Source of the DNA: Caldicellulosiruptor morganii
GTDB lineage: Bacteria; Bacillota; Thermoanaerobacteria; Caldicellulosiruptorales; Caldicellulosiruptoraceae
Length of the DNA: 64,000 bases
Direction of reading: 5' to 3'
NCBI RefSeq assembly: GCF_026810225.1
Contig: NZ_CP113865.1
Span: 2,299,501-2,363,500, forward strand
Of the stretch, positions 52,850 through 60,157 are shown one piece after another (position 1 is the stretch's first letter; every line of letters begins with the position of its first letter). The notes under the pieces were generated by a model. It searched no databases, was not told the DNA's origin, and worked only from the letters and a program-made list of their open reading frames with translations. A program made the translations under genes and the position numbers.

Positions 52850-54283
52850 TTAAAAATACAGATCTCTCTGTCCGTTTTTTATCATCTCAAGCCTTTTTTC
52901 GGTTTCTTTTCTCATCTTCTCATCTTTGATTTCAAGAAGGCTTCTGTAAATAAGATCTCTTCCTATCTGCTTTGTCTTTTCAGATCCATAGTCTTCTAAA
53001 TATTCCATAAATGTCAATAGCGCATTTGGCGTGCAAAAGTCCTGAATATCGCCTGTCTTTGCATACTGCATAAAAAGATCCCCTGTTCTTCCTTTTCTGT
53101 AGCAGGCAGTACAGTAGCTTGGAATATAGCCAGACTCACACAAAGTTCTTATAACCTCATCAGGGCTTCTTCTGTCCTCAACCTCAAACTGTGCAAGGTC
53201 TTTTTCTAAGTCTCCGGTTGATTTTCCTTCATATTCAAGCGTGTAGCCACCAACACCGGTGCAGGACCCGGCGCTGATTTGTGATATACCAAGGTCAATC
53301 ACCTCTTCTCTAAAACCCGGTCTTTCTCTTGTAGACAGAATCATGCCGGTGTAGGGCACAGCAAGCCGAATTATTGCAACAATCTTTTTGAACTCATCAT
53401 CAGATACCAGATATGGATATTTTTCTTTTGTCACATCAACACCCTCGGCAGGGCGAATTCGCGGAACAGAGATTGTGTGCGGTCCCACTCCAAACCTCTC
53501 CTCTAAATGCCTGGCATGCAAAATCAATCCTACAACCTCAAACCTGTAGTCATAAAGTCCAAACAAAACCCCAAGCCCGACATCGTCAATGCCTGCCTGC
53601 ATAGCCCTGTCCATTGCCATTGCATGCCAGTCATAGTCAGACTTTGGACCTTCAGGGTGCATGTATTCATAGGTTGGGCGGTGATATGTCTCCTGGAAAA
53701 GCACATACGTGCCAATTTTTGCATCTTTTAGCATTCTGTACTCTTCAACTGTTGTTGCCGCAATGTTGACATTCACTCTTCTTATATTGCCTTTTTCCCT
53801 GTAGACAGAATATATGGTATTTATGGCATCTATTACGTACTCAATTGGAGTTTCTTTTGGGTCCTCGCCAAGTTCAAGAGCAATCCTTTTGTGCCCGAGA
53901 GACTCTATTATCTCAACTTCTTTTCGTATCTCATCCATTGTGAGTTTTCTTCTTTTCATTCTGGTGTTTGACCTGTGATAGCCACAGTAGCGGCAGTTGT
54001 TTACACAAAAGTTGCTGATGTAAAGCGGGGCAAAAAGGACAATTCTTTTGCCATAGATTCTCTCTTTTACCTTTTTTGCAGCTTTGAATAGTTTTTCTAA
54101 AAGATGCTCATCTTCTATATAAAGGAGGGTGGCAACCTCCTCGGGTTCAAGCCCATTTAACTTTAAAGCTTTTTCTATTATATCTTCTGCCCTGTGCTGA
54201 TTTTGCCTACCCTTTTCAAGGATTTCAAATACCATATCATCATTGATAAAATCTGCTCTTTCCCACTCATCTTTTCTAAACAT
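52850..54283 (-). CDS. hydG: [FeFe]-hydrogenase maturase HydG
   Basis: HydG is a radical-SAM tyrosine lyase that makes the CO and CN ligands of the hydrogenase H-cluster. The radical-SAM cluster motif is FCVNNCRYCGYH. The second, C-terminal cluster motif is CTACYRKGRTGDLF through to QDFC. Length is 477 residues from ATG 54283. The sequence has the ThiH-like barrel. The TM1266-type gene upstream is a usual partner. hydE and hydF are not in the window. Confidence 0.95.
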   Translation of the reverse strand: MFRKDEWERADFINDDMVFEILEKGRQNQHRAEDIIEKALKLNGLEPEEVATLLYIEDEHLLEKLFKAAKKVKERIYGKRIVLFAPLYISNFCVNNCRYCGYHRSNTRMKRRKLTMDEIRKEVEIIESLGHKRIALELGEDPKETPIEYVIDAINTIYSVYREKGNIRRVNVNIAATTVEEYRMLKDAKIGTYVLFQETYHRPTYEYMHPEGPKSDYDWHAMAMDRAMQAGIDDVGLGVLFGLYDYRFEVVGLILHARHLEERFGVGPHTISVPRIRPAEGVDVTKEKYPYLVSDDEFKKIVAIIRLAVPYTGMILSTRERPGFREEVIDLGISQISAGSCTGVGGYTLEYEGKSTGDLEKDLAQFEVEDRRSPDEVIRTLCESGYIPSYCTACYRKGRTGDLFMQYAKTGDIQDFCTPNALLTFMEYLEDYGSEKTKQIGRDLIYRSLLEIKDEKMRKETEKRLEMIKNGQRDLYF

Positions 54284-54304
54284 CTCAAAACCACACTCCA
54301 ATCT

Positions 54305-54550
54305 TTATTTTGTAAGAGCACTTTTTACCTTCACACCGCTCAAAGCTCCAAGCTTTCCTGTCAGCGCACCAATATCATCTGTTGTCCCATCCACAATCAG
54401 AGAAATCACACACAGCCCTCTTTCTTTATACGGTATACCCATCCTGCCAACAATGATATCACCATAATCACTCAGGATTTTATTGAGCTTCTCTGCCACA
54501 TCTTTTCTGTTTTCAACAACAATCCCAATAACACCAATTCTCCTTTCCAA
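54305..54550 (-). CDS. TM1266-family ACT-like protein (hydrogenase-associated)
   Basis: An 81-residue protein of the family annotated as iron-only hydrogenase system regulator (TM1266). RIGVIGIVVENRKDVAEKLN and GDIIVGRMGIPYKERGLCVISLIVDG show the ACT-like alpha/beta fold. The start is TTG 54550, with a weak GGTGA upstream. It ends 21 bp before hydG and is surely in the same transcript. A structured leader precedes it. Confidence 0.88.
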   Translation of the reverse strand: MERRIGVIGIVVENRKDVAEKLNKILSDYGDIIVGRMGIPYKERGLCVISLIVDGTTDDIGALTGKLGALSGVKVKSALTK

Positions 54551-54720
54551 TTTACTTCACCGTTCCTTTTCAAAAAATAAATCCACCTCTCCTGACCTTT
54601 TCAATCAAAAGAGGTGGACATAGCCTTCCTTTTTAGCATCAAACCAATAACCCCCTCCCTATCAGGCTGCAATGCCCTCTAAGTCAGGATCAAATATTCT
54701 GTTTGTTAATATTATAACAT
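54551..54720 (-). promoter_or_regulatory. Promoter and structured leader of the TM1266-hydG transcript
   Basis: A -10 box TATAAT lies at 54716-54711 (- strand) with TTTAAA 17 bp further upstream (54739-54734). The leader of about 155 nt contains a terminator-like hairpin, TCCACCTCT with AGAGGTGGA (arms at 54610-54618 and 54582-54590), followed by ATTTATTTTTT. The hairpin loop carries GTCAGGA (54596-54590, - strand), which can pair with TCCTGAC near the transcript start (54689-54683), giving a pseudoknot. It matches no riboswitch that I recognise. Confidence 0.5.
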
Positions 54721-54867
54721 ACTTTCGAAACTTTTTAAAGCTACCTGAAAAATTTTTTCTTCATCCTGATTTCATTAAAACAAAGCAGAAAAATGATGTA
54801 TAATATAATAAACATATTTCTTTTTTAAACAAACATGCTTCTACACAAAAAAAGGAGCTGATTTTTA

Positions 54868-57098: not shown

Positions 57099-57518
57099 AT
57101 TTCTGATTTAACATTTTTAAAAAAGCAATTGGAGCAAAAGGGAATTAAACCTTCGTTTATAAGGCTAAAAATCTATCAATATTTGGTAGAGCACAAAACT
57201 CATCCAACAGCCGACGAAGTCTACAATAGCCTGCTTTCTGAAATCCCCACACTTTCAAAAACATCTGTATACAATACTTTAAGTTTATTTGTCTCAAAAG
57301 GTCTTGCTCAGATTATCACAATTGAAGAGAACATTGCACGCTTTGATGCTGATACGTCGGTGCACGGGCATTTTAAGTGCAAAACCTGTGGCAAAGTTTA
57401 TGATTTTTTAATAAAATCAGACTCTATTTACTCTTCGCTTTCTCCTGAATTTGTTGTTGATGAGGTTTACGTCTACTATAAGGGCACCTGCCCTTATTGT
57501 AAAAATAAAAACAATTAA
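57099..57518 (+). CDS. Fur-family metalloregulator (PerR-like)
   Basis: A Fur-superfamily repressor of about 139 residues: winged helix ([28 protein letters not shown]; key: [25 protein letters not shown]), then [15 protein letters not shown], and a C-terminal CPYC. Two CxxC pairs form the structural zinc site. With rubrerythrin next door a PerR-type peroxide role is likely. I extend the gene upstream to ATT 57099, behind AAGGGGG: translation from there ([16 protein letters not shown]) restores the usual N-terminus, while TTG 57129 has no ribosome binding site. The start remains open. Confidence 0.8.
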
Positions 57519-57541
57519 ATTGTGGGAGGTTGATTTTTGAA

Positions 57542-58078
57542 ATGAAGGATTTGAAGGGAACACAGACAGAAAAAAACCTGTGGGCAGCATTTGCAGGTGA
57601 GTCCCAGGCAAGAAACAAGTATACCTACTTTGCATCACAGGCAAGAAAAGAAGGATATGAGCAGATTGCAGCAATCTTCGAAGAGACAGCTGAAAATGAA
57701 AAAGAGCATGCAAAGCTATTTTTCAAATTCCTAAATGGAATTGGAAACACTCAAGAAAACTTAAAGGCTGCTGCAGAAGGCGAACACTATGAATGGTCTG
57801 AGATGTACAAAGAGTTTGCAAAGGTTGCAAGAGAAGAAGGCTTTGATGAGATAGCCCTTGCTTTTGAGTTTGTTGCAAAGGTTGAAGAAAAGCATGAGGA
57901 AAGATACAGAAAGCTTCTTGAAAATGTTGAAAATGGCAAGGTATTTGTAAAAGATGACGTGGTTGTCTGGAAGTGCAGAAATTGTGGTTATGTACATGTG
58001 GGAAAAGAAGCACCAAAGGTATGCCCAACCTGCAAACATCCACAGTCATTCTTTGAGATTAGAGCTGAGAACTACTGA
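57542..58078 (+). CDS. rbr: Rubrerythrin
   Basis: A 178-residue peroxide-reducing non-haem iron protein. The four-helix diiron domain has the Glu ligands in [27 protein letters not shown] and [10 protein letters not shown]. The C-terminal rubredoxin-like domain has [10 protein letters not shown] and CPTCKHPQ. The start ATG 57542 comes 12 nt after GGGAGG. It follows the Fur-family gene by 23 bp and is presumably repressed by it, giving an oxidative stress unit for an anaerobe. Confidence 0.94.
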
Positions 58079-58238: not shown

Positions 58239-59477
58239 ATGAATTGGGGAAAAATAATCATAGGAGATAGCAGAAATATGTCTGAAATAGATAATGAAAC
58301 AATTGATTTGATAATAACCTCACCGCCTTATTGGCACCTAAAAGATTATGGTGTGGAAAACCAGATAGGATATGGTCAAACACTTCATGAGTACTTAAAA
58401 GATTTGTATCGGGTATGGCAAGAATGTTTTAGAGTACTTAAAGAAGGGCGCCGTTTGTGCATTAATATTGGTGACCAATTCGCACGTTCTATAGTCTATG
58501 GCAGATATAAAATAATCCCATTACACTCTGAGATAATTGCTCAGTGTGAAGATATAGGATTTGATTATATGGGAGCAATAATTTGGCAGAAAAAAACCAC
58601 TATGAATACAAGTGGTGGAGCAAATGTTATGGGATCTTATCCATATCCACCAAATGGCATGATAGAAATTGATTATGAATTTATACTTATATTCAAAAAG
58701 CCTGGAAAATCTCCAAAGGTGTCTCCTGAAATCAAAGAAAAATCTATCCTGACAAAGGAAGAGTGGAAAGAATACTTTAACGGACACTGGTATTTTAAAG
58801 GAGAAAAACAAACTGAACATGAAGCCATGTTCCCTGATGAACTTCCATATAGATTAATCAAAATGTTCTCTTTTGTTGGAGACACAATATTAGATCCATT
58901 CTTAGGCAGCGGAACGACCCTAAAAGTTGCGTTAGAACTTGAGAGAAATGGAATAGGATATGAAATTAATTCAGATTTTTTAGAAATAATAAATAAAAAG
59001 TTAAATACAATTAATAACTCTTTCCTTTATAAGATTGAGACTATTAAAAAAGAAATCAAAACTCCTGAGATAAAAGCTGTGAAATATGAGCCTCGCATCA
59101 AAGATGCATCACCCATGATTGATCCTAAGATAATTGAACCTAAAAAAAACCAATATTTTAAAGTTTCTGAAATAGTCTCTGCTGATACAGTTAAACTTAA
59201 CAGTGGTTTGGAAGTAAAATTATTAGGAGTAAAAATAAAGAAAGAAAAGGAAAAAGAGGCTGTAGAATACTTAAAAAATTATGTGTTGAATAAAGAAGTT
59301 TTTTTACGCTACGATACCAACTCTACTGTAAAAAACAATAATGTAAATGCTTATTTATATCTTAAAAACAAAATCTTTATTAATGCTTACTTAATAAAAA
59401 GTGGACTTGCTTTAGCCGATAAAGATAGTTTTTACACTTACAAGAATAAATTTGAAAAATTAGAGGGGATTGACTAA
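58239..59477 (+). CDS. Type II DNA methyltransferase (N4-cytosine type) with SNase-like C-terminal domain
   Basis: A 412-residue beta-class methyltransferase: catalytic motif TSPPYW at residues 27-32 first, SAM motif DPFLGSGTT near residue 222 later. TSPPYW favours N4-cytosine methylation. From about residue 305 a second domain begins: YFKVSEIVSADTVKLNSGLE, VKLLGVKIKKEKEKEAVEYL, KNKIFINAYLIKSGLALAD. This has the order of strands of the staphylococcal nuclease (TNase) fold, but the catalytic Arg and Glu positions are Lys or absent. It forms an operon with the endonuclease 2 bp downstream. GAAAGGAG precedes the ATG. Confidence 0.85.
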   Translation: MNWGKIIIGDSRNMSEIDNETIDLIITSPPYWHLKDYGVENQIGYGQTLHEYLKDLYRVWQECFRVLKEGRRLCINIGDQFARSIVYGRYKIIPLHSEIIAQCEDIGFDYMGAIIWQKKTTMNTSGGANVMGSYPYPPNGMIEIDYEFILIFKKPGKSPKVSPEIKEKSILTKEEWKEYFNGHWYFKGEKQTEHEAMFPDELPYRLIKMFSFVGDTILDPFLGSGTTLKVALELERNGIGYEINSDFLEIINKKLNTINNSFLYKIETIKKEIKTPEIKAVKYEPRIKDASPMIDPKIIEPKKNQYFKVSEIVSADTVKLNSGLEVKLLGVKIKKEKEKEAVEYLKNYVLNKEVFLRYDTNSTVKNNNVNAYLYLKNKIFINAYLIKSGLALADKDSFYTYKNKFEKLEGID

Positions 59478-59479
59478 TA

Positions 59480-60157
59480 ATGGCAAAAGAGTGGATTTTA
59501 AACATGGCTACTAACAGATGGGGATTAAATAAAAAAGACAAAGTGGGTCCTGTTGCTAAATGGATTAGAGAAACAGCGCCTAAAAATATCGAAGAGTGGG
59601 AAAAGGCTTATTTAAAACTTGTAGAAGAGAACATTTTAAAAACTAAAAATTCAGAATTCTCCAATGCTGAAGAATATCTTGAAGAGCTTGGTAGAAAACT
59701 TTATATTAAAATAACAGAAGTTATTCAGGCTGAAATTGACGATGTCACTGAACAAGACTGTATAAATTATATAAAGCAATTAGTAATAAATCGCACTTTT
59801 GAAGGGTATCTTACTGAAAAAAACACCATCTACGGTAGAATAGAAAAATTGTTGAATGTAAAAATTTATCCTGCTCCAGATGAATGGGATAGATTATATA
59901 ATGTAGACTTTTATATTCAAATAAAAAACAAGTATATTGGAATACAAATAAAACCCATTACCTATGAACACATGCCTCAAATACATAATTGGATAGAATG
60001 GCTTTCGCAGACCCACAAAAAATTTTCGGAAAAATTTGGTGGAAAAGTATTTGTTATATTTTCTATCAAAAACAAAGATGGCAAAAAGGAGATACACAAG
60101 GAAAACGAGATAATAGAGCAAATCAGACAAGAAATAGAAAGACTAAAGCAAATATAA
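59480..60157 (+). CDS. Type II restriction endonuclease, MjaI-like
   Basis: A 225-residue protein that I associate with the MjaI restriction enzyme family, whose archetype recognises CTAG. Characteristic parts are ILNMATNRWGLNKKDKVGPV, RTFEGYLTEKNTIYGRIEKL and YPAPDEWDRLYNVDFYIQIK. The likely PD-(D/E)xK core is VDFYIQI...IGIQIK (Asp then Gln-x-Lys). The methyltransferase upstream overlaps almost directly, as is normal for a type II pair. Specificity is inferred and not tested; the family call is from memory. Confidence 0.75.
   Translation: MAKEWILNMATNRWGLNKKDKVGPVAKWIRETAPKNIEEWEKAYLKLVEENILKTKNSEFSNAEEYLEELGRKLYIKITEVIQAEIDDVTEQDCINYIKQLVINRTFEGYLTEKNTIYGRIEKLLNVKIYPAPDEWDRLYNVDFYIQIKNKYIGIQIKPITYEHMPQIHNWIEWLSQTHKKFSEKFGGKVFVIFSIKNKDGKKEIHKENEIIEQIRQEIERLKQI

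Follow-up and report, generated by a model that had tools for sequence, protein, structure and literature searches.

A covarying RNA hairpin before TM1266–hydG in Caldicellulosiruptor morganii represents a widespread, apparently undescribed family tied to [FeFe]-hydrogenase maturation

The window analyzed here, a stretch of 64,000 nucleotides from the genome of Caldicellulosiruptor morganii, carries on its minus strand a TM1266-family gene followed by hydG, the gene for an H-cluster maturase (Table 1). Transcription would start near position 54704, as judged from a promoter-like site that is overlapped by a Rex-type operator palindrome, and the resulting leader of ~154 nt would reach to the TM1266 start codon at 54550. 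An RNA hairpin and an intrinsic terminator lie within it, both downstream of the predicted start. The first-pass annotation had described a structured leader of 155 nt with a terminator hairpin before hydrogenase-maturation genes, and both descriptions hold; it had missed the main feature, the hairpin upstream of the terminator. Elsewhere in the window, reading the translations by eye points to adjoining Fur-family-like (57129-57518) and rubrerythrin-like (57530-58078) genes, and, at 58239-60157, to a DNA methyltransferase-like gene with a possible restriction-enzyme gene behind it.

Table 1. Features of the leader and of the genes behind it, in positions of the window (R1, covariance model of the RNA element; A1, alignment of 31 element domains)
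Feature	Position	Strand	Basis
Rex-type operator palindrome TGTTA-N6-TAACA, TGTTAATATTATAACA, overlapping the -10 box	54704..54719		Pattern scan
Predicted promoter, -35-like TTTAAA and -10 TATAAT	54739..54734 and 54716..54711	-	Consensus scan
Conserved RNA element (putative switch domain)	54649..54693	-	R1 match; folds alone into the consensus hairpin
Element 5' half, CCUGA-CUUA-GAGGG	54675..54688	-	Alignment A1
Element 3' half, CUGA-UAGG-GAGGGG	54652..54665	-	Alignment A1; shared-strand test
Intrinsic terminator with a 5-nt loop on a stem of 17 pairs (G-U included)	54581..54619	-	Terminator scan; kept in genus
Terminator U-rich tail, TTATTTTTTG	54571..54580	-	Terminator scan
TM1266-family gene, start codon TTG	54305..54550	-	PF21699, 119.1 bits; TIGR03959, 119.1 bits over cut-off
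hydG, H-cluster maturase	52850..54301	-	TIGR03955, 657.6 bits over cut-off

Across 12 genomes of the genus, four blocks are kept upstream of TM1266 and are separated by spacers that differ in length and sequence: the palindrome, TCCTGACTTAGAGGG, GCCTGATAAGGAGGGG (GCCTGATAGGGAGGGG in the window), and the terminator with GTCAGGAGAGGTGG. The genus alignment shows the -10 box unchanged in the 12 leaders except for one change in L012, and the palindrome conserved with one T-to-C change in L012. The terminator scan returned one terminator-like site against 1.0 expected in shuffled sequences, which is not significant by itself; the terminator is convincing because it is conserved in the genus.

The upstream regions of TM1266 genes from other Clostridia contain two half-sites of the form CUGA-N4-RAGG, in which the two N4 segments are complementary yet genome-specific; in the window, UAGG of the 3' half pairs with CUUA of the 5' half. 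The core of the element is a hairpin with a CCU/GGG base, a purine-rich internal loop and a helix of 3-4 bp of almost any sequence, and its upper part consists of a second, inverted purine loop and a GGN/N'CU apex. In A1, which comprises 31 of 45 domains (left out were L006, L007, L010, L015, L062, L063 twice, L067, L092, L107, L121, L160, L166 and L168), the basal pairs C6-G41, C7-G40 and U8-G39 are followed by a 2 by 2 purine loop and the pairing of N4 with N4', and then, after the second, inverted 2 by 2 purine loop, by the pairs G17-U30, G18-C29 and N19-N'28. The internal-loop purines are highly conserved, the opposed positions being mainly G-A and A-R in the first loop, then R-A and A-G (G-A at columns 9-38 in 20 of the 31 sequences, A-G at columns 16-31 in 30). 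RNAalifold gives the same hairpin unprompted from A1, and RNAfold folds the element of the window leader by itself into this consensus.

Base pairing in A1 extends to 95.8% of cells, and both sides have changed in 89 cells, against 30.8 in shuffled alignments, none of 500 of which reached this count; the score is biased for the middle helix because all 45 domains had been preselected for at least three of four complementary middle bases. The apical pair, which played no part in the choice of sequences, shows 15 both-side changes and 1 break (n = 31). When sequences were selected by the conserved letters only, 6 of 12 distinct N4 combinations were fully paired, against a mean of 1.1 after partner swaps and a maximum among 1000 swaps of likewise 6 full pairings. 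A further alignment, A3, contains 42 sites from sources outside A1, aligned via R2, a model without base pairs; both sides have changed in 63 of its cells, against 22.2 (sd 3.8) in shuffled alignments, none of 500 of which came as high, and A3 is only partly independent since some of its loci (L201-L240) had been found with R1. Comparison among genomes thus shows the element to be a structured RNA whose middle helix and apex covary, the conserved structured domain that is looked for in a riboswitch. An arrangement of two local hairpins with kissing loops scores close to the single hairpin, with 93.9% paired cells and a covariation score of 0.555 in A1 (95.8% and 0.655 for the single hairpin), and 89.9% and 0.328 in A3 (88.4% and 0.343). 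It was rejected, as it does not account for the covariation of the apical pair and as RNAalifold and RNAfold both prefer the single hairpin; in some leaders, such as L061, the local hairpins could also form as a dynamic alternative. Many leaders have two domains, the first of which is sometimes, by eye, a plain CCUGA-long stem-RAGGG (L084, L122, L138).

With R1 at E up to 0.05, matches were found in 111 of 398 genomes of the phylum. The genome of the window has a single match, which is the leader itself (G000:C1:2354149-2354193, minus strand, E 1.2e-7). At 110 TM1266 loci, 74 of 74 R1 matches lie on the sense strand of TM1266, 67 of them upstream of the gene and 7 just behind it; 56 of the loci have a match upstream and 54 have none at this threshold. 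Among 40 other R1 sites, the next gene is hydG at 17, hydE at 6, hydF at 1, TM1266 at 4, an ECF S component gene at 5 and an ABC transporter gene at 1, so that 34 precede a hydrogenase-maturation, TM1266 or transporter gene; the remainder comprises an unknown gene with a terminator (1), a contig end (1) and positions within reading frames (4). The names hydG, hydE and hydF at these 40 sites come from reading translations, with model checks at L206, L209, L220, L223, L230 and L233, and besides for HydF of L084 and aspA of L072. Possible chance matches of the model are those within reading frames (L212, L216, L237 and L240, by our own reading), the one at the contig end (L208) and the one before the unknown gene with a terminator (L234). 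At L234, a 185-aa protein without a Pfam match is encoded on the reverse strand ~110 nt behind the element, with element and terminator in front. The window's genome also has a radical-SAM match of hydE size with weak HydG similarity ~60 kb away (G000:C1:2291687-2292373), where R1 finds no element at E 0.05.

The element is not confined to TM1266 leaders. In 12 hydG loci of one family (L017-L021, L023-L030; 13 shown, all alike), it lies between the promoter and hydG without TM1266, and the N4 variants of this family, GCCC/GGGC, GUCC/GGAC (L025) and GCCU/GGGC (L028), represent compensation or wobble. Two Deltaproteobacteria carry element and terminator before TM1266, L290 with GAGG/CCUC and L247 (Solidesulfovibrio) with CGGC/GCCG. 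The wider family samples around G180 and G302 comprised only 3 and 2 genomes, respectively. A search of Rfam 15 (4227 models) found no family at the gathering threshold in the window, where matches at E up to 10 were eukaryotic snoRNA, miRNA and IS009 models, all below gathering; in 20 diverse relatives nothing was found at the element, and a tRNA and a group II intron piece were found elsewhere. The first-pass annotation had seen no match to the riboswitches that it considered (TPP, SAM, THF, Moco, NiCo, preQ1 and c-di-GMP). In a literature search restricted to open-licence papers, and as far as their accessible parts go, no account of this RNA was found. Within the limits of these checks, the leader belongs to a widespread, apparently undescribed structured-RNA family tied to [FeFe]-hydrogenase maturation.

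Transporter genes also occur with the element. A gene for an ECF S component (PF12822, without an NCBIfam name) lies directly behind TM1266 in L061, L062, L333 and L346; in L201, L204, L214, L222 and L227 such a gene is preceded by an element of its own. The proteins of L201, L204, L333 and L346 are related, with 72/168 to 147/170 aligned positions identical. The elements of L204, L214, L222 and L227 have a 3' strand reading AGGGGG only a few nucleotides ahead of the start codon. In L203, the genes behind the element form an SsuABC-like ABC operon. Another linked gene is that for aspartate ammonia-lyase (aspA), which is next after TM1266 in L064 and L072 (model-checked in L072) and lies behind hydG in L231; this enzyme may perhaps supply ammonia for H-cluster assembly. 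L201, L220 and L228 encode similar membrane proteins behind the ECF gene or hydG, which we take to be DUF554-like.

The layout of the leaders suggests how the element could control expression. In 24 of 31 leaders with a terminator, taken from different families (L006, L007, L010, L011, L062 and L150 were left out as near-duplicates or for poor terminators, L014 because its terminator had been mis-called), the element pairs through its 3' strand with the 5' arm of its own terminator at a mean of -12.6 kcal/mol, compared with -10.5 kcal/mol when partners are swapped, and 0 of 2000 swaps were as good. The duplex reaches -13.3 kcal/mol for the window's own sequence and -22.2 kcal/mol in L002. The pairing favored by the first-pass annotation, between the 5' strand of the element and the 3' arm of the terminator, gave -7.2 against -7.0 kcal/mol in the same leaders, with 711 of 2000 swaps as good. 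That annotation had read TCCTGAC and GTCAGGA as a pseudoknot with GTCAGGA in the terminator loop. The two motifs are indeed complementary and kept in all 12 genus leaders; GTCAGGA sits, however, in the 3' arm of the 17-pair stem, and with swaps so often as good, the pairing is rejected as a general device and is possibly an addition specific to the genus.

We propose that the 3' half of the element is the strand shared with an antiterminator. The closed hairpin would leave the terminator free to form (OFF), and opening it would let the 3' strand pair with the 5' arm of the terminator as an antiterminator (ON). Where the 3' strand holds the Shine-Dalgarno sequence, the closed hairpin would hide it, again giving OFF. 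A domain strand would thus be shared with the expression platform, as in riboswitches, with the sharing computed for terminators and the Shine-Dalgarno overlap seen in the sequence. Because the 3' strand overlaps both the antiterminator and the Shine-Dalgarno sequence, the folded state would be OFF in both layouts, and we consider this polarity likely. The computed ground state of the window leader is the closed hairpin plus terminator, at -48.4 kcal/mol compared with -30.9 kcal/mol for a forced antiterminator of the type first proposed; as the closed state is far more stable, the ON state would need kinetic control during transcription, or a helper. That the leader chooses between termination and read-through, as the first-pass annotation had suggested, is supported by the covariation, the distribution and the shared-strand architecture. 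Neither outcome named in that annotation as counting against it appeared, since homologous leaders do covary and the predicted start lies upstream of the hairpins. Taken together, the sequence data make a cis-acting RNA switch in this leader highly probable. The earlier observation is in part confirmed and its interpretation in part supported; the actual finding is larger, a new regulatory RNA family.

The promoter carries a control of its own. The palindrome TGTTA-N6-TAACA has its sole match in the 64 kb window there (0.19 expected), the genome encodes a Rex-type DNA-binding domain (PF06971), and such a site at the promoter is what is looked for in a member of the Rex regulon. In the accessible part of a C. 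bescii study (PMC6391272), Rex binding is validated upstream of the TM1266-hydG two-gene unit Athe_0168 (called CopG regulator plus HydG), the site lying 181 bp from the start codon, and deletion of rex changed this unit by log2 -0.21, -0.23 and -0.27. The part of PMC5886521 available to us gives a predicted Rex site at -92 of hydG for T. saccharolyticum. An extra RNA step would fit the unchanged expression in C. bescii, since a unit that is bound by Rex and not raised by rex deletion is expected if a later step limits expression. In the arrangement that we propose, Rex would set initiation by redox state, and the RNA would set read-through by assembly state. The operator in the window and the published binding also suit a passive leader, in which Rex is the sole control and the terminator merely reduces basal expression; we hold this to be very improbable, because the element covaries and recurs before differently arranged hyd genes and the C. 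bescii unit did not respond to rex deletion.

As for what closes the hairpin, a trans-acting effector would stabilize it, most likely the TM1266 protein, which resembles the C-terminal domain of NikR (PDB relative 2nzc). Whole genomes were searched in 37 cases: that of L243, whose locus has TM1266, and 36 genomes with a hydG locus that lacks it. TM1266 exceeds the cut-off in 8 of the 37 and not in 29, and R1 (E up to 0.05) matched in 4 of the former and 3 of the latter. The three matches in TM1266-less genomes were rejected, as those of L325 and L327 lie within listed ORFs and that of L321 in a protein-coding stretch by our own reading. Also counted as misses were the match in the TM1266-bearing genome G420 (L326), which has no hyd gene behind it, a weak match in L297 (E 0.075) on the strand opposite TM1266, and a match before hydE in L271 (E 0.008) that did not recur in the whole-genome search. 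Together with the 44 loci of which TM1266 is itself a part, 19 of them with the element, and with L243 counted once, a hyd or TM1266 leader carries the element in 22 of 51 TM1266-bearing and 0 of 29 TM1266-less hydG genomes (p 1.1e-5), or 23 of 51 and 3 of 29 for any R1 match regardless of position (p 0.0013), a co-occurrence that is confounded by descent because the TM1266-less genomes are mostly distant lineages. With the same confounding, the candidate effector gene was present in every one of these hydG genomes that has the element at a leader, as an attenuator controlled by TM1266 would require. A comparison of TM1266 residues between 59 proteins from motif-bearing and 51 from other genomes revealed no clean RNA-binding signature.

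We therefore favor, tentatively and at somewhat below even odds, TM1266 as the effector, an autogenous repressor that would act on the H-cluster assembly genes by binding the RNA, although the 54 TM1266 loci without an upstream match count against it, as do the transporter genes of the regulon, which a small-molecule riboswitch would also control. Direct sensing, in which the same OFF switch is an aptamer for a small molecule such as an H-cluster assembly intermediate, an ECF-imported precursor, or an iron or cysteine species and TM1266 is a mere passenger, is in our estimate a less probable reading that still deserves weight. The joining of enzymes with two unrelated transporter types is typical of riboswitches, the loop purines are highly conserved, and in the one hydG family the leader contains little besides the element between promoter and start codon. 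On the other side, no genuine element was found in the 29 hydG genomes searched that lack TM1266, and short repeated symmetric hairpins are commoner as protein sites than as aptamers. The protein fits at least as well as the redox- or iron-linked ligand that had been suggested first. The same 54 loci would agree with a genuine conserved element that answers to another effector, such as temperature, an antitermination factor or a different RNA-binding protein, or works with another polarity, the closed form then favoring expression; as the overlap of the 3' strand with antiterminator and Shine-Dalgarno sequence points to folded as OFF, we think this unlikely. The fuller picture, a dedicated biogenesis switch for [FeFe]-hydrogenase in Firmicutes and some Deltaproteobacteria, in which a symmetric RNA with two loops senses TM1266 or an organometallic or precursor ligand and the ECF transporter of the regulon imports something that the H-cluster needs, seems to us evenly balanced between right and wrong.

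If the TM1266-centered switch is real, H-cluster assembly would gain a dedicated control at the RNA level, and TM1266, a family called a putative regulator, would acquire a testable role. The ECF S component tied to the pathway would be a lead to an imported precursor or signal. Such a switch may explain why rex deletion leaves hydG expression in C. bescii unraised, and would offer a handle on hydrogen production by thermophilic fermenters.

Among known systems, Rex control of hydG acts at the same promoter as here, with its operator present; it works at the DNA level, at initiation, and explains neither the RNA element nor, in the accessible part of the C. bescii data, the expression left unchanged by rex deletion. 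Riboswitches for Moco, NiCo, TPP and other metals or cofactors follow a similar logic of terminator or Shine-Dalgarno control, with no Rfam 15 match at the element. The Rfam library includes T-box models, and no Rfam family, and hence no T-box sequence with specifier loop, was found there. A kink-turn, a three-nucleotide bulge next to tandem G-A pairs, was rejected, as A1 shows two symmetric 2 by 2 internal loops. Guanidine-II (mini-ykkC) RNAs resemble the element in being short hairpins that recur, at times as two or more copies in a leader, and that have small conserved loops; their conserved letters are, however, ACGR terminal loops, whereas here they lie in purine internal loops, inverted with respect to each other, within a single long hairpin, the genes differ, and the element has no Rfam match. 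The PyrR, LicT and TRAP attenuators share with the proposed switch a leader hairpin that competes with a terminator, a candidate regulator in the operon, and sometimes several copies of the site; the RNA is different, and the candidate here is TM1266, a putative RNA binder that resembles the NikR C-terminal domain.
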